Shown here in pieces: positions 27,810 through 52,331 of a stretch of DNA of 63,501 bases. This DNA comes from Pseudanabaena sp. M085S1SP2A07QC (lineage in GTDB: Bacteria; Cyanobacteriota; Cyanobacteriia; Pseudanabaenales; Pseudanabaenaceae), in NCBI GenBank assembly GCA_020404895.1, contig JADBWK010000005.1:1-63501 (forward strand). The letters are read 5' to 3'. The position numbers and the translations under genes were made by a program. The stretch's first letter is position 1; each line of letters opens with the position of its first letter. A model generated the notes under the pieces. That model was not told where the DNA came from. It did no database searches and saw nothing but the letters and a program-made list of their open reading frames with translations.

Positions 27810-28628
27810 CTAGACTTCTCCTTTCATGACCATTTCACCCGTCGGTTCAGGCATATCTTTGTTTGGCTCAATCGTGATGATTAAGGTTGTAGTTTGTTTG
27901 AGAGCTTTACCTAGTGGCACTTTCACAAAAACATTGCCTTGCTCGTCAGGACGAAACTGAGCGCAATCGACCTTTTTGCCATCAACGATCGCCCAAAGCC
28001 GATAGCTATTATCTTGAGGAATTTGCCTCAGATTCTGAATGCTAATCATCGCAGTTTTTTCAGTGGGCGCAATCATCACACTTCCAGAAGCCGCAGGAAT
28101 TGCCCCCATCCCCTTGAGCGAGATCGTGCGATTGTCAAGACCTTGCAGCATGGCAATAGTTTTGCGATGTTTTTGTAACTCGATTTGATTAGAGGCAATT
28201 TGTTGGCGCATTTGGTAATTCTCAAAGCCAAGAGCAATTAGCGCGATCGCACCAATGCTACTTAAACCAATTGTGGCTAATTTCCAGAGATTCCTTCGGC
28301 GAGGCGATCGATTAATAATTGCTGTCAAGGGATTGCTTGAGGAGTCTATCGACGGATCTAAGGGATCTGTTAACAGATTCTCAACAGTTATCGGGATAGC
28401 CTGTGCCGCAATCCGATCGCGTAGATTTTTAGCTGGATGAGTTTCGCTCAAGCCCAGAGGCAGCATTGCTAAAGTCTCTTGAAAGTGATCGATTTTTGTG
28501 ACTGTTTCTGGATGCTCTAGGATAATTTTATGCATCTCGATAACTTCTTCAGGATCGAGATCTCCCAATACATATCCTGCTAATAGTTCTTCCCATTCAT
28601 GGGAATATTTATTTTGTAGTGTCGTCAT
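27810..28628 (-). CDS. Anti-sigma factor, RskA family
   Basis: This is a membrane anti-sigma factor of about 272 residues. The N-terminal cytoplasmic zinc-free anti-sigma domain (EWEELLAGYVLGDLDPEEV) is followed by a single membrane helix (about 115-135, LWKLATIGLSSIGAIALIALG) and a periplasmic RskA domain (YRLWAIVDGKKVDCAQFRPD, TLIITIEPNKDMPEPTG). The ATG at 28628 has GGAG five bases upstream; a GTG at 28634 overlapping the sigma stop is the alternative. It is translationally coupled to the sigma gene and surely sequesters it until a signal triggers release. Confidence 0.9.
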   Translation of the reverse strand: MTTLQNKYSHEWEELLAGYVLGDLDPEEVIEMHKIILEHPETVTKIDHFQETLAMLPLGLSETHPAKNLRDRIAAQAIPITVENLLTDPLDPSIDSSSNPLTAIINRSPRRRNLWKLATIGLSSIGAIALIALGFENYQMRQQIASNQIELQKHRKTIAMLQGLDNRTISLKGMGAIPAASGSVMIAPTEKTAMISIQNLRQIPQDNSYRLWAIVDGKKVDCAQFRPDEQGNVFVKVPLGKALKQTTTLIITIEPNKDMPEPTGEMVMKGEV

Positions 28629-28630
28629 AA

Positions 28631-29197
28631 TCACTCCAACGTATTCTGCAAGCTTTCTCTCAATCGAATTAATCCATTACGCGCCCAAGACTTAACCGTC
28701 CCCAATGGTGTTCCTAGCATTTTAGCAATTTCAGATTGGCTTAGTCCATCAAAATATGCCATTTCTAATACTTGGCGATGATTTTCAGGCAACTTTGCCA
28801 AAGCTGATTTTACTTTTTCCGAACGTTCGGCTAGTGACGCATTTTCCATGAGTGATGAGGTTCTGATATCCAGTTCTGAAGCAATACCCTGTTCCCATTT
28901 TTGGAGATGCTGCTGTTGCGATCGCGTTTTGCGAATGTGGTCAATCGCACGTGATCGGGTCAAGACTGTCAAAAAAGTGGAGATCGAACCGCGTTTACTA
29001 TCGTAAGTACTATTGCGACTAAGCAAAATGAAGATCTCTTGGGTGAGGTCTTCCGCCTCTTGGGGGCTACTTAAGATCCTTAATGATAAGCGGTAAACCA
29101 ACTCACCGTAGCGATCGTAAAAGATGCCAAAAGCTTGACCGTTTCCCGATCGCCAAGCTTGCAGTATTTCTACATCGGTTTGCTCGGAGAGTTTCAT
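28631..29197 (-). CDS. ECF-type RNA polymerase sigma factor (SigK-like)
   Basis: This 188-residue sigma-70 family protein has region 2 (FGIFYDRYGELVYRLSLRIL, EAEDLTQEIFILL) and region 4 (LPENHRQVLEMAYFDGLSQ, SEIAKMLGTPLGTVKSWARNG). Regions 1 and 3 are absent, as in ECF factors. Its stop overlaps the anti-sigma start, the usual sigma/anti-sigma arrangement. The regulon is unknown. Confidence 0.92.
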   Translation of the reverse strand: MKLSEQTDVEILQAWRSGNGQAFGIFYDRYGELVYRLSLRILSSPQEAEDLTQEIFILLSRNSTYDSKRGSISTFLTVLTRSRAIDHIRKTRSQQQHLQKWEQGIASELDIRTSSLMENASLAERSEKVKSALAKLPENHRQVLEMAYFDGLSQSEIAKMLGTPLGTVKSWARNGLIRLRESLQNTLE

Positions 29198-29308: not shown

Positions 29309-29884
29309 TTAAGGGTTAACTTCTTGTTCGCTCCAATTTCCTTGCTCATCACGTAGATATATCCAGCGATTTTGAGGTGTTCCGCGTAATTCGAGGCGAT
29401 CGCATTCGGTGGGATTTAGCAAGAGCAAACAAAAAGTATCAAGTGGTTGATCGGGATCGGGTGTCGTTATTGCTAAGAAGTCAACCCTCGGTTCTCTAGG
29501 ATGCGCCCATGCAAACTGCATTCTTGCAGGTTCCGAGAGAGTCTTCCATGCAGCGGATCTCGCTGTTTGCAATTCTAAATCTGAAAATTCACTATCAATT
29601 AAGATTAGTTTGCCAAAAATCCGAAATTGCGATCGCGTTTTCGTGAAATACCAACTTACCTCCGCCCAAGGATTAGCCCTAATTTGCTCAATCTTTTGAC
29701 TGCGCGAGTCGGTAACAACTTTTAGGCAATCTGGAAAGCGATCGCTATTTTCAAGAAAGCCCCGAAATACGACTGTGCGATTGCGTGGACGCTGATCTAA
29801 GTCAATCGTGGCAAGTTGTAAAAACCTTGCTTCGGGTTGGTTGCGGTGCTGATGTAAACTTCGAGCTAGATGCGATCGCCACAT
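29309..29884 (-). CDS. PPOX-class FMN-dependent flavoprotein (alr4036/Npun_F5749 family)
   Basis: From the ATG at 29884 this is 191 residues. The split-barrel FMN fold of pyridoxamine-phosphate-oxidase relatives is seen in FLQLATIDLDQRPRNRTVVFRGFL, KVVTDSRSQKIEQI, AEVSWYFTKTRSQFRI and a C-terminal DRLELRGTPQNRWIYLRDEQ (broken across strands). The family is widespread in cyanobacteria; the substrate is unproven. Its ATG is the left end of a perfect palindrome whose right end is the ATG of the divergent neighbour. Confidence 0.82.
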   Translation of the reverse strand: MWRSHLARSLHQHRNQPEARFLQLATIDLDQRPRNRTVVFRGFLENSDRFPDCLKVVTDSRSQKIEQIRANPWAEVSWYFTKTRSQFRIFGKLILIDSEFSDLELQTARSAAWKTLSEPARMQFAWAHPREPRVDFLAITTPDPDQPLDTFCLLLLNPTECDRLELRGTPQNRWIYLRDEQGNWSEQEVNP

Positions 29885-29940
29885 AAAACCATTTAGAATA
29901 AAGTTGCGCAAAGCGCAACTTTATTCTAAATGGTTTTATG
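29882..29940. repeat. Perfect 59-bp palindrome whose ends are two divergent start codons
   Basis: The 28-bp arms 29882-29909 and 29913-29940 are exact reverse complements around an AAA loop. The outer three bases are CAT/ATG: the minus-strand PPOX gene starts at 29884 and the plus-strand P-loop gene at 29938. The core is GTTGCGC-AAA-GCGCAAC. The whole 53 bases between the two start codons is palindrome. Confidence 0.9.
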
Positions 29941-31971
29941 TCGAATTTGTGGATTGAGGGCGGTAGTAAGAGCGGCAAGACTGAGCGAATAGTTCAGCGA
30001 TTCTGTGATTGGTCAGAAACGGATTTTGCATACCAGTCTAATCCTCAAGCAGCTTCCCAAAAAGTCTTGGTGCTTACTGTCGATTCTCAACAACGTCGGG
30101 AGCTAGGAGATCGCCTGATGATCGCAACTCATGGCAGCTATCCAGTTACCGCTGTCACCCCGCTAAGTTTTTTTCATGATGAAGTACGCTTGTTTTGGAC
30201 ATTATTAGTTAAAAAGCTCGATCTCAAAGCTCAGTTTCCATTGCTCCTCAGAGTTGAGAATGAGCAGGAACTCGCTAATAAGCTCTGGAAAGATCGCATC
30301 GAAACAGGAACCTTGCAAATGGAAGGGATCGGGCGCGATCGCCTTGTCCGCAGATTGCTGGATTTGTTTCTATTAGCTGTCTATGGTGGTCGCGAAATTA
30401 AAGAAATTCCTGCAATTTTAAATGCTGGTATCGAGACTAATATTTTAGAAAATGCTGTAGGTACTGAGAATAATATATTAGAACAATGGCAAGAAATTGG
30501 CGAAGCTTTACAAGAATGGCGCAAGTATTGCTGGGAGAGAGGTTTACTAACCTATGGAATTATTACGGATTTATTCGCCCATTATTTACTTCCTAATCCA
30601 CAATATCAACGCAAACTCAAGGAAAGATTTCGATATATTATCGTCGATCGCGCTGATGAAATGCCTGCGATCGCCTGTGATTTATGCAAGTTTCTGCTTA
30701 AAAATAATGCGATCGGCCTGTTTACATTTAATCCTGACGGATCAGCAAGATTGGGGTTGGGTGGCGATCCTGAATATTGGCGATTGCTCAAATCAGAATG
30801 CGAAATCGTAAGTTTACCCCATGCTAGTCATACTTTGGGAACTGAAATCGCTGAATCAGTTCTGCAAGTTGTCAGCGAACCAATTTTACAATTTATCGAA
30901 CCCTACACCTCGATTAAATTGATTGAATCTGTTTCTCGTGCCAAATTATTCCGTAATGTTGCTGAAACCATTGCCGAAGCGATCTCATCGGGCGAAATCA
31001 AAGCCAGCGAGATCGCCATTATTGCCCCTGGATTAGATAATATTTCCAACTATGCGATCGCGGAAATTCTGCGCAAAAAGAATATTAATATTACTCCACT
31101 CAACGATCAGCGCCCATTGTCCTATTCCGCTCAAGTGCGATCGCTACTTACCCTCATTACATTAGTCTATCCGAGCCTTGGGCAACTCGTAAGCCGCGAT
31201 CATATTGCCGAAATGTTGGTGGTGCTTACGGATGAGATCGATCCAGTCAGAGCGGGAATGCTTGCCGATTACTGCTTTGCAAGGCATCCAGAAAGCCCGA
31301 AACTTCTAGAAGCACAAACCTATAACCAATGGAATCGACTTGGCTATGAAGCGACTCAAGCCTATGAAAAAGTGCGGCAATGGATAGAACTGCAATCGCC
31401 AAAAGACACTCCATTGCTATTTATTGATCGCACTATTCAAGCATTTTTTAAACCGCGCAAATTGAATTATGAACATACTTCTACATTGCAATCATTGATT
31501 GAAACTGCCCAATATTATTGGCAATTGGGATATCGCCTCGATCAAGAAGAACCTGTAATTCTCGAAAATTTCATTCAACTAATTCGGCAAGGCACTGTCA
31601 CGGCAAATCCCTATGCGCCAAATCAACCTGAAGATAGCGTTGTCATCGCGACAATTATCCAGTATCGCATGGCAAGGCGATCGCATCGTTGGCAATTTTG
31701 GCTGGATGCTAGTTCTGAGCTATGGTTGCAGGGTGGATCTGCGTCTCTATTCGGTGCGCCACTTTTTCTTAAAAGCTGGAATGGCACATTATGGACAATC
31801 GAAAATCAGCGTGATGCCGATATGCAGCGTTTACAAAGGTTGCTTAGGGATTTACTCGATCGCACAGGAGATCGTTTATATCTCTGTCATAGTGAACTCA
31901 GCACCAATGGACAGATCCAAAATGGCGTGTTAATTCCATTAATTGAGATCAGTACGACACAATTAGCATAA
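29938..31971 (+). CDS. UvrD/RecB-like P-loop protein of cyanobacteria
   Basis: This is a 677-residue protein with a Walker A-like loop at the very N-terminus (LWIEGGSKSGKTERIV) and a possible Walker B (RYIIVDRADEMP, about 237-248), resembling superfamily I helicases and AddB/RecB-type exonuclease subunits. KASEIAIIAPGLDNISNYAI and NITPLNDQRPLSYSAQVR fit helicase motifs IV-V positions. No C-terminal nuclease motif is apparent. Homologues in cyanobacteria are often labelled recombinase or helicase. A DNA repair role is an inference. The right arm of the start-codon palindrome forms its immediate 5' region. Confidence 0.65.
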   Translation: MSNLWIEGGSKSGKTERIVQRFCDWSETDFAYQSNPQAASQKVLVLTVDSQQRRELGDRLMIATHGSYPVTAVTPLSFFHDEVRLFWTLLVKKLDLKAQFPLLLRVENEQELANKLWKDRIETGTLQMEGIGRDRLVRRLLDLFLLAVYGGREIKEIPAILNAGIETNILENAVGTENNILEQWQEIGEALQEWRKYCWERGLLTYGIITDLFAHYLLPNPQYQRKLKERFRYIIVDRADEMPAIACDLCKFLLKNNAIGLFTFNPDGSARLGLGGDPEYWRLLKSECEIVSLPHASHTLGTEIAESVLQVVSEPILQFIEPYTSIKLIESVSRAKLFRNVAETIAEAISSGEIKASEIAIIAPGLDNISNYAIAEILRKKNINITPLNDQRPLSYSAQVRSLLTLITLVYPSLGQLVSRDHIAEMLVVLTDEIDPVRAGMLADYCFARHPESPKLLEAQTYNQWNRLGYEATQAYEKVRQWIELQSPKDTPLLFIDRTIQAFFKPRKLNYEHTSTLQSLIETAQYYWQLGYRLDQEEPVILENFIQLIRQGTVTANPYAPNQPEDSVVIATIIQYRMARRSHRWQFWLDASSELWLQGGSASLFGAPLFLKSWNGTLWTIENQRDADMQRLQRLLRDLLDRTGDRLYLCHSELSTNGQIQNGVLIPLIEISTTQLA

Positions 31972-32092: not shown

Positions 32093-32707
32093 CAAGGCTA
32101 TTTCAAGAACAGGTAAGAAAATGAAAAAAGCAACCCATGTTCATAAATAGGTTTTTAGTCGATAATTTTAGCCAATAGTGTCAAAAGAGGTAGAAAATGA
32201 GTAAAAGCATAATTGATTATCTCAAGGAAGTGCCAGATCCACGCGGAGCGCAAGGGAGTCGAGACGATTTATGGCAAATCCTGCTAATTATCATCATGGG
32301 AATTATGAGTGGACATACAACCTACCGAGAATTAGAGAGATTTGTGGAGAGACAAGGGTAACTCGTTCAGGTGAGCGCGAAGGTAAAGATTACAGCACAT
32401 TGAGTTACTACTTCAGTTCTTTACCGCCAACATCTGAACGAATTGCCAAAGTGATTCGAGGACATTGGCAGATCGAAAACCGCCTACATTGGGTAAAAGA
32501 TGTCATTTTCGATGAAGATAAGAGTCCTCAAAAAGCAGGGAATGCACCGATTAATCTGTCAATCATCAAGACTTGGGTACTTTCTGTATTTAGGCTTCAT
32601 GGTTTTGACTCAATAAAGAGAGCAATTGACCGATTTTCCAATAATATACCTACCGTGTGGTCTTTACTTATTTAGAATCTCTCTTATCCGTTCTTGAAAC
32701 AGCCCTG
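32093..32707. mobile_element. ISAs1-family insertion sequence, internally deleted (615 bp)
   Basis: The ends are CAAGGCTATTTCAAGAAC (left) and GTTCTTGAAACAGCCCTG (right), an 18-bp inverted repeat with two mismatches that continues as AGGTAAGA / TCTTATCCG. Full ISAs1 elements are about 1.2-1.4 kb, so half is missing. On the right it abuts a truncated copy of the 150-bp miniature element. Confidence 0.8.
32197..32675 (+). pseudogene. ISAs1-family transposase with central deletion
   Basis: The N-terminal 54 codons (MSKSIIDYLKEVPDPRGAQG, LLIIIMGIMSGHTTYRELERF) end in TAA at 32361. In another frame the C-terminal third resumes (REGKDYSTLSYYFSSLP, GHWQIENRLHWVKDVIFDED, GNAPINLSIIKTW). The catalytic DDE middle is lost. 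This is a dead transposase. Confidence 0.85.
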
Positions 32708-36974: not shown

Positions 36975-37537
36975 GTACTCTTCAACTTCAGTACGACACG
37001 CTCCTCAGCCATTACAGCAATCCTCTCGAAGCGATCTCACTCTTGAGAGAATATCGTCCATATTTTGAGCTGATTCCCAGTCTGCGCCGTCCCATAGACA
37101 GCTTGATTTCGATTCCCTTTCCAGTCGTGCAACTTACTAGTCCCAACTTGACTCAAAGTCACGTTCAGTTGCAATGCGATCTAGCCTTGATCATGTGTGA
37201 TCCTGACTGGAAAGTCAAAACTGGTCAAGAAATTTTTGTATTTATCCATCGCCCCAATGAGGACTATTCATCTTTACTAAAACGCTGGCGACAAGTAGAA
37301 GTAGCCCTTGGAGAAGAGTATTATTGGCTGTTACCTTGGAAGCATCGCAGCATTATTAGCGATCGTGGTGAATACCATTATCCGCTTTTTGTCACGCTCG
37401 ATTATTCACCAGCTCGTATTCATAAAGGTTTAGAAGGTGCATCACTTCCCCATGTTAAGGCTGCTAATCTAGCGATCGATCATCCTCCAGACATTGAAGA
37501 AAATCAAGAAGCTCCTATTTGTGATCCGACTCAATAG
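36971..37537 (+). CDS. Unknown protein translationally coupled to the receiver-kinase
   Basis: This 188-residue soluble protein shares the ATGA overlap with the upstream kinase, so the two are almost certainly made together. It has no signal peptide or membrane helix. The region FVFIHRPNEDYSSLLKRWRQ and EEYYWLLPWKHRSIISDRGEY is rich in aromatic and charged residues. I recognise no family. A role as kinase partner or output protein is inferred from coupling alone. Confidence 0.7.
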   Translation: MSTLQLQYDTLLSHYSNPLEAISLLREYRPYFELIPSLRRPIDSLISIPFPVVQLTSPNLTQSHVQLQCDLALIMCDPDWKVKTGQEIFVFIHRPNEDYSSLLKRWRQVEVALGEEYYWLLPWKHRSIISDRGEYHYPLFVTLDYSPARIHKGLEGASLPHVKAANLAIDHPPDIEENQEAPICDPTQ

Positions 37538-37538
37538 A

Positions 37539-37586
37539 TTTATAACAATTCTCAAAATGGCGTTGCCATTTTGAGAATTGTTATAA
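37539..37586. repeat. Perfect palindrome, 22-bp arms, GTT loop
   Basis: TTATAACAATTCTCAAAATG plus GC pairs exactly with its complement around GTT. It separates two convergent genes. The inner part resembles the terminal hairpin of the 101-bp TACCA element. Confidence 0.8.
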
Positions 37587-37587
37587 A

Positions 37588-38673
37588 TCATAGTGTTCCC
37601 GATCGCAGTTTAGTCCAGATATCCTTATACTTCGTAAGCGTTGATGGCGGCAAAGGTGACATTAATTCACTCTTTGCCAAAATATCTTTAGAGAAAAACT
37701 TGATCGGATCAGACTTAACACTAGCGGGAACCATCTCTAATTCACTCGATGGGCTAATCGCATCGGTCAAGGATGTTATTTGAGCGGCGACCTCAGGTGT
37801 CAGACAGAAATTCATCCATTCCATTGCTGCGATCTCAACTTCACCTTTAGGTATCACCCAAATATCACTCCAAAGCACTGTGCCATCTTGGGGGATTACC
37901 ACTTTGAGATTAGGATTTGTCCTCTGAGATTTGTACATATCACTCGTCCACCCCACGGCGGCAAGCGTATCGTCGGCTAATAGAGATTGTAAATAATTAT
38001 CAGAAGAGTAGGTTAAAACCTGAGAGTTAAGACTCTTTAGCTCTTGGGTAAGTTTAGCCAGAAGGTCAGGACGTTCAACTATGTTTTCTGGCTGATCGCG
38101 TAGCCCCATCTTTTTCAAGACCAGCCCGATCACTTCACGAGCATCATCTGGCAATGTTAGTTTTAGTTTTAATTCTGGTCGCCATAGGTCAGCCCATTGA
38201 GTAATCTCAAATTTCAGCTTGTCACTGCGATAGGCGATCGCGGTTGCGCCCCAACGATAGGGAATGCCCCATACTTGATCATTGCGCGTGACGCTTTGTT
38301 TCCATAGGGGTGAAAGTTTTTGCCATTTTGGAATTTTTTCTAATAAGTCGGGCGTGATTGGTTGGATTAAAGATTGGGCGATCGCCTGATCTAACCAGCT
38401 ATCTCCGATACTCATTAAATGAGGCGCTTTATCTTTAGGAATGTTTGGATAGTTTTGCAGTTCTTGCCAAAGTTTTGAGGGCAGATTCTCTGCTTTAAAT
38501 TCGAGTTTCTTTTGGGAAGCTGACTCAAACTGATTAATTACTTTACTGGGTATTGCCCCTAGCAAACCCACAATGCGCAAGCGCTCTCGTTGGTCAAAAG
38601 GATTTGACCATTGACATCCCCCAATCGACGTGACTGTCGCACCGCTTAAAACTAGAAACTTACGTCTATCCAT
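37588..38673 (-). CDS. PotD-like substrate-binding lipoprotein (orphan)
   Basis: This 361-residue extracellular solute-binding protein, with MDRRKFLVLSGATV and a lipobox ending IGGC (C20), is probably Tat-exported and lipid-anchored. The mature fold is of the PotD/PotF type (WGIPYRWGATAIAYRSDKL, AAVGWTSDMYKSQ, VLWSDIWVIPKGEVEIAAMEW). It is not next to a permease or ATPase. It may feed the same transporter as the potA/potD genes at 21-23 kb. Ligand unknown. Confidence 0.82.
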   Translation of the reverse strand: MDRRKFLVLSGATVTSIGGCQWSNPFDQRERLRIVGLLGAIPSKVINQFESASQKKLEFKAENLPSKLWQELQNYPNIPKDKAPHLMSIGDSWLDQAIAQSLIQPITPDLLEKIPKWQKLSPLWKQSVTRNDQVWGIPYRWGATAIAYRSDKLKFEITQWADLWRPELKLKLTLPDDAREVIGLVLKKMGLRDQPENIVERPDLLAKLTQELKSLNSQVLTYSSDNYLQSLLADDTLAAVGWTSDMYKSQRTNPNLKVVIPQDGTVLWSDIWVIPKGEVEIAAMEWMNFCLTPEVAAQITSLTDAISPSSELEMVPASVKSDPIKFFSKDILAKSELMSPLPPSTLTKYKDIWTKLRSGTL

Positions 38674-52302: not shown

Positions 52303-52331
52303 ACAATAACGGCGCGTAGCGCCGTTATTGT
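52303..52331. repeat. Perfect palindrome, 13-bp arms, GTA loop, inside the ribosomal operon
   Basis: ACAATAACGGCGC (52303-52315) pairs with GCGCCGTTATTGT (52319-52331). It sits in the 51-base gap between rpsE and rplO, in the middle of a transcript that must be read through. Confidence 0.85.

Follow-up and report, generated by a model that had tools for sequence, protein, structure and literature searches.

Short symmetric DNA that serves two opposite transcripts has been described in bacterial bidirectional promoters (PMC10268837, PMC12825309), in which one symmetric -10 element is read both ways and the diverging starts lie approximately 18 bp apart. The locus described here, a perfect inverted repeat of 61 bases (29881-29941) between two divergent Pseudanabaena genes, is alike in that short symmetric DNA would serve two opposite transcripts, and the TAGAATA in each of its arms has -11A and -7T that coincide reciprocally, as they do in symmetric -10 promoters. 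It differs in having two distinct boxes that point towards each other from either side of a 23-bp hairpin tip; the predicted transcripts thus overlap at their 5′ ends rather than diverge, whereas starts 7-25 bp apart on opposite strands are expected of the symmetric -10 class.

Three further kinds of element resemble this locus in part. Quasipalindrome correction, or template-switch mutation (PMC8604942, PMC8794818, PMC7202029), is matched in identical arms, compensatory two-sided changes and loop inversion, and arm homogenisation together with spacer inversion is the published mark of template switching (PMC8604942; PMC8794818); the events in those reports were described in genes of yeast, in RNA genes or in laboratory E. 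coli, whereas here many intergenic hairpins of one bacterial genus, a putative promoter region included, have apparently been shaped in this way. A 5′-terminal stem-loop can protect mRNA in E. coli (reviewed in PMC3997798) and, like the ompA and papA transcripts with their 5′-terminal stem-loops, the mRNAs predicted here would open with a short G+C-rich stem-loop, although the start is a prediction in this case. The bidirectional intrinsic terminators of Rho-less cyanobacteria also combine a long hairpin with T runs on the two strands, but the present structure lies between gene starts, not gene ends; in Synechococcus elongatus, transcript ends that look like canonical terminators are only a minority (PMC13289151).

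The structure is a variant that combines known things, a bidirectional promoter and a template-switched palindrome, and not a new kind of system. The preferred reading, to which a probability of about 0.58 is given, is that the palindrome is a mirrored promoter region shared by both genes, made and kept perfect by template switching. Perfect pairing of a long stem that survives sequence change is usually taken as selection on RNA structure; here, marks of DNA copying (loop inversions, paired changes and a probable spill-over into a codon) stand beside two fixed promoter-like boxes, which allows both causes to be separated at a single locus.

A perfect palindrome fills the gap between two divergent genes

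The window (the whole stretch of DNA that was analysed, 63,501 nucleotides) and its genome belong to Pseudanabaena, as do most of the named relatives found in a second collection. The palindrome and the genes that flank it are arranged as follows, with positions numbered in the window.

29309..29884, minus strand: PPOX-type FMN flavoprotein gene (TIGR04026, Npun_F5749 family; 191 aa)
29881..29909: left arm, 29 bp, perfect, including the PPOX start codon (CAT, 29882-29884)
29910..29912: loop AAA (AGA in the orthologue of G010)
29913..29941: right arm, including the P-loop start codon (29938-29940) and the first base of codon 2 (T29941)
29938..31971, plus strand: P-loop protein gene (677 aa; weak match to the UvrD/REP helicase N-terminal domain, PF00580)

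The original prediction had described exact arms of 28 bp; their exactness holds, and the true arm length is one base more, 29 bp. The arms run into both start codons, in agreement with the earlier description of the 5′ region of both genes as wholly palindromic. With exact arms, CAT at one end follows automatically from ATG at the opposite end, which is one coincidence and not two; the coincidence that needs an explanation is that the palindrome just fills the gap. Both ATGs, as had been proposed, are very likely genuine starts, since the PPOX start (the ATG before WRSHLA) and the P-loop start are conserved in nearly all orthologues in the genus. A TTG at 29911 was considered as an alternative PPOX start and rejected, as it is not conserved in orthologues. 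The P-loop gene is present in 25 of the 26 genus genomes searched, and a sequence search with the 677-aa protein gave no relative of known structure.

There are 27 perfect inverted repeats in the window (arm of at least 12, loop of at most 9), of which the palindrome at 29881-29941 is the longest. Order-2 Markov versions of the window (20 trials) contained at most one perfect inverted repeat with an arm of at least 12 and none near 29, and a chance origin of the palindrome with 29-bp arms is excluded. The full hairpin is predicted to be very stable (-41.4 kcal/mol), and the palindrome is single copy in its own genome, even when 3 mismatches in 25 nt are allowed. No Rfam family matched it at the gathering score; the sub-threshold matches were mostly of the microRNA type, such as any long hairpin may give.

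Orthologous hairpins keep two inward-facing boxes

Orthologous gene pairs were sought in 26 genomes of the genus. A hairpin with TAnAAT in both arms, with the divergent pair adjacent, was found in 14 genomes (G000, G002, G003, G006, G008, G009, G010, G014, G015, G018, G020, G021, G039 and G040), and in G005 and G022 the same TAnAAT hairpin stands before the P-loop start although the PPOX gene is not next door. The two genes are apart and have no such hairpin in G012, G017 and G019, and the locus is masked in G013. An unrelated hairpin with no TAnAAT in its arms is present in G011 and G007, and no hairpin was found at the gap of the gene pair in G001 and G038, which indicates that the gene pair does not need the structure. 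The orthologous hairpins directly precede the P-loop start and most end 5-8 nt short of the ATG; arms flush with the start codons are found only in three closely related species (G000, G008 and G010), of which G008, the cultured Pseudanabaena sp. UWO311, has the same palindrome. Stem length is approximately 17-22 bp where pairing is imperfect and 17-29 bp where it is perfect; the inner stem sequence of G009, G005 and G022 is quite different, yet still paired.

Both arms of the orthologous hairpins keep an inward-facing TAnAAT box, although the hairpin sequence drifts. In a nine-species alignment, all 10 fixed bases of the two boxes are invariant, relative to 11 of the 43 other gap positions (Fisher P 2e-5), although the -10 motif was chosen after the alignment had been viewed and the two boxes of a palindrome are not independent evidence; for the left half alone the counts are 5/5 box bases and 4/20 others (P 0.002). 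The third box position varies in the alignment (G, A or C), which is variation that a -10 box would tolerate. The inward TAnAAT reading is invariant in the orthologues, whereas the outward reading is not always kept. The tip GnGC/GCnC is likewise invariant among the nine species. Of the 11 adjacent pairs listed, 10 have a spacing of six bases between box and tip G on both strands, and G014 has one of seven. Six or seven bases is the usual distance from a -10 box to the transcription start, and in 10 of these 11 pairs the first G of the tip is the predicted +1 on each strand. TAnAAT is rare in the arms of other palindromes (2 of 116 in this genome and none of 128 in G002), and is thus not a general feature of Pseudanabaena hairpins. 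It is this combination of conservation, spacing from the tip and rarity elsewhere that leads to the boxes being read as promoters. A promoter scan found no -35 partner for either box, and no consensus sigma-70 promoter with a -35.

In G015 (L015, L051) the hairpin loop is interrupted by a MITE-like insertion, longer than 100 bp and containing a further hairpin, while both boxes are intact; a similar loop insertion, half seen, is present in G004 (L016, L052). The insertion has inverted ends, AAGTAG..GGCATAA and TTATGCC..CTACTT.

Predicted transcripts carry one arm each

The elements of the mirrored promoter reading are listed below.

29894..29899, plus strand: putative -10 box TAGAAT of the P-loop gene, facing the loop, invariant save for position 3 in orthologues
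29923..29928, minus strand: putative -10 box TAGAAT of the PPOX gene, facing the loop, conserved in orthologues
29906..29916: conserved tip GCGC-AAA-GCGC, with predicted starts at about 29906 (plus) and about 29916 (minus)
29906..29937, plus strand: predicted P-loop leader, 32 nt
29885..29916, minus strand: predicted PPOX leader, 32 nt, matching the P-loop leader except in the loop

The left TAGAAT box would direct transcription of the P-loop gene from approximately 29906 on the plus strand, and the right one that of the PPOX gene from approximately 29916 on the minus strand. Each mRNA would then consist of the tip stem-loop and one arm only, and the two leaders would be near-identical 32-mers; leaders of 32-35 nt are predicted in most orthologues. 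As each predicted mRNA holds one arm only, neither start codon would be paired with its own complement, and in RNA beginning at 29905 (plus) or 29917 (minus) only the tip hairpin is stable, the remainder folding no better than shuffled sequence. Given starts near 29906 and 29916, the full hairpin would form only in transcripts entering from outside. Promoter activity and the transcription starts are inferred from the sequence features described above, and the 5′ stem-loop may have a stabilising role.

The original prediction had argued that the palindrome leaves almost no room for promoters, and had posed a choice between promoters inside coding DNA, nearly leaderless mRNAs and a start hidden in a hairpin. 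The first argument is unsupported, since the best conserved bases are the two TAnAAT boxes inside the arms, from which leaders of approximately 32 nt are possible. As to the hidden start, with internal promoters the start codon would not be locked in the hairpin, and RNA from 29905 folds no better than shuffled sequence. The choice itself would dissolve if the promoters sit inside the arms, which the conservation favours.

An extension of the promoter reading, put forward as a speculation that is probably wrong, is that the element insulates itself. Its own transcripts would carry half of the palindrome and escape, incoming transcripts would carry all of it and be terminated at the UUUU before the next start codon, and template switching would keep the halves matched, so that a promoter pair and a two-way stop would be joined in one element.

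Probable marks of template switching between the arms

In the proposed mechanism, one arm would now and then template the other during replication (quasipalindrome correction), by which the arms would stay identical, and the same copying between arms would flip the 3-nt loop. Both arms change together at the orthologous hairpins, with paired-position changes on both sides in 11 cells compared to 3.6 in shuffled columns and 0-2 when the arms were slid. Inversion of the loop between unchanged arms is seen, at the gap of the gene pair, in G011 (GAA) relative to G007 (TTC), where the 17-nt arms are identical, and between G000 and G008 at the palindromes beginning at 37537 (GTT/AAC) and 52303 (GTA/TAC). 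At the orthologous hairpins the loop is GAA in G002 and G021 and TTC in G020, G039 and G040, with arms that differ at 1-3 pairs. A comparison of loop inversion between G002 and G020 yielded 2 usable sites only, as the stretches are hardly syntenic. Selection on an RNA hairpin with ordinary mutations could also give the co-change of the arms.

A further mark may lie in the P-loop coding sequence. Only G000, G008 and G010, which form a clade with support of 99/96, have TCG as codon 2 of the P-loop gene; in the remaining 22 orthologues this codon is mostly ACN or GCN, and otherwise CCN or AAT. The T of this TCG is the outermost base of the palindrome and is complementary to the PPOX side, on which the codon after the ATG holds the sequence at ATGT(GG); ATGTGG is read there in nearly the whole genus. 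The simplest reading appears to be a copying tract from the PPOX arm that extended one base into the P-loop coding sequence, although the change could be a plain point mutation. In the proposed sequence of events, a copying event in the ancestor of the three species, for which the PPOX arm was probably the template, would have reached the P-loop ATG and gone beyond it by one base, and as a result the palindrome now ends in both start codons.

Perfect palindromes are abundant in Pseudanabaena

Perfect palindromes number 116 in 318 kb of this genome and 128 in 400 kb of G002, a complete genome. The densities of 36 and 32 per 100 kb, respectively, compare with 0-7.5 in five other cyanobacterial families sampled, a contrast that is only partly controlled as the five families are higher in G+C. 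The two sampled Pseudanabaena genomes thus have approximately one perfect intergenic palindrome per 3 kb, at least four times the density of the other five families. Similar copies in the sampled DNA were found for 51 of the 116 and 70 of the 128 palindromes. The loop is most often 3 nt (TTC/GAA or TTT/AAA) and closed by C-G, and the tips are G+C-rich. This richness in palindromes suggests Pseudanabaena as a natural system for measuring bacterial template switching and its effect on promoters and terminators. Loss of the hairpin-cutting SbcD or of exonuclease VII (XseA) was considered as the cause of the abundance and rejected, as both genes are present throughout the genus.

Almost all of the palindromes are intergenic, with 3.3-4.8 per kb of gap between convergent genes relative to 0.6-1.3 between divergent genes, where the gap classes rest on gene calls made by a simple longest-ORF heuristic. 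They lie nearer to stop codons than to start codons, and their concentration between convergent genes indicates that most are probably terminators. In the sampled DNA, nine palindromes extend over the stop codons of both convergent genes, and in several of them the overlap is exactly equal on the two sides. The filling of a gap up to both coding ends occurs at gene ends too, and the divergent case is the rarer form.

In the window, a perfect palindrome with 25-bp arms (37537-37589) fills a convergent gap and overlaps both stop codons. It is a dispersed repeat, its query region having 34 matches in this genome and up to 46 in relatives. The second palindrome with a loop inverted in G008 is also perfect and spans 52303-52331.

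Alternative explanations

The TAGAATA of each arm can also be read outward as TATTCT, which would place starts at approximately 29888 (minus) and 29934 (plus), a few bases before the ATGs, so that the mRNAs would be near-leaderless and each arm would be a symmetric bidirectional -10 as in E. coli. The reciprocal -11A and -7T agree with the described bidirectional promoters (PMC10268837), as does the 18 bp that separates the inward and outward starts predicted from the sequence, and leaderless transcripts occur in cyanobacteria (PMC6091082). However, G009 and one arm of G018 have lost the T at -12 of the outward reading but retain the inward box, extra bases between box and PPOX ATG in G009 and G003 mean that a leaderless start would not be conserved, and in the window an outward transcript would have T as its +1; near-leaderless transcription is accordingly regarded as unlikely. 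Also improbable as the account of this locus is a two-way intrinsic terminator or insulator, in which transcripts arriving from either side would contain the complete 29-bp hairpin, with UUUU at the foot of the stem, and would end ahead of the next gene. A scan for terminators finds the structure on both strands (6 hits relative to 0.4 expected), the full hairpin has the stability noted above, a G+C-rich stem is followed by a U run on both strands, albeit a short one (TTTT), and the distribution of palindromes in the genus, densest in convergent gaps and close to stops, is that of terminators. The U run on the P-loop side is not conserved, most orthologues having a T run only on the PPOX side; both flanking genes begin here, so that the structure is not downstream of a gene; and the conserved TAnAAT boxes are left unexplained. 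A terminator role is compatible with the mirrored promoter reading, and the two can coexist.

An operator, at which a dimeric regulator would control both genes, would account for a symmetric site between divergent genes and for the conservation of the inverted TAnAAT, but the spacing of the half sites varies (23-25 bp in most, 38 in G009 and, through the loop insertion, more than 130 in G015) and the half site matches a -10 box, which makes this very unlikely. Least probable is the insertion of a mobile palindromic repeat (REP, SDR or MITE) between the genes. Approximately half of the sampled palindromes have similar copies, and for that at 37537 there are many genomic matches, but the present hairpin has counterparts with the same boxes at the equivalent position even in distant species of the genus. 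Classification of the 29881-29941 palindrome as a dispersed repeat, REP or mobile element was also rejected, as it is present once rather than in many copies.

Neighbouring genes and separated gene pairs

Downstream of the PPOX gene, on the minus strand (27810-29197), are an ECF sigma factor gene and then an RskA-type anti-sigma factor gene, and a DDE transposase fragment (32271-32675) lies just downstream of the P-loop gene. In G012, G017, G019 and G022 (L037, L039, L040; L007, L008, L010, L012) the PPOX gene is not next to the P-loop gene. In G012 and in G019 it still has the leader AATGGTTTTATG, as would be expected of a break inside the palindrome.
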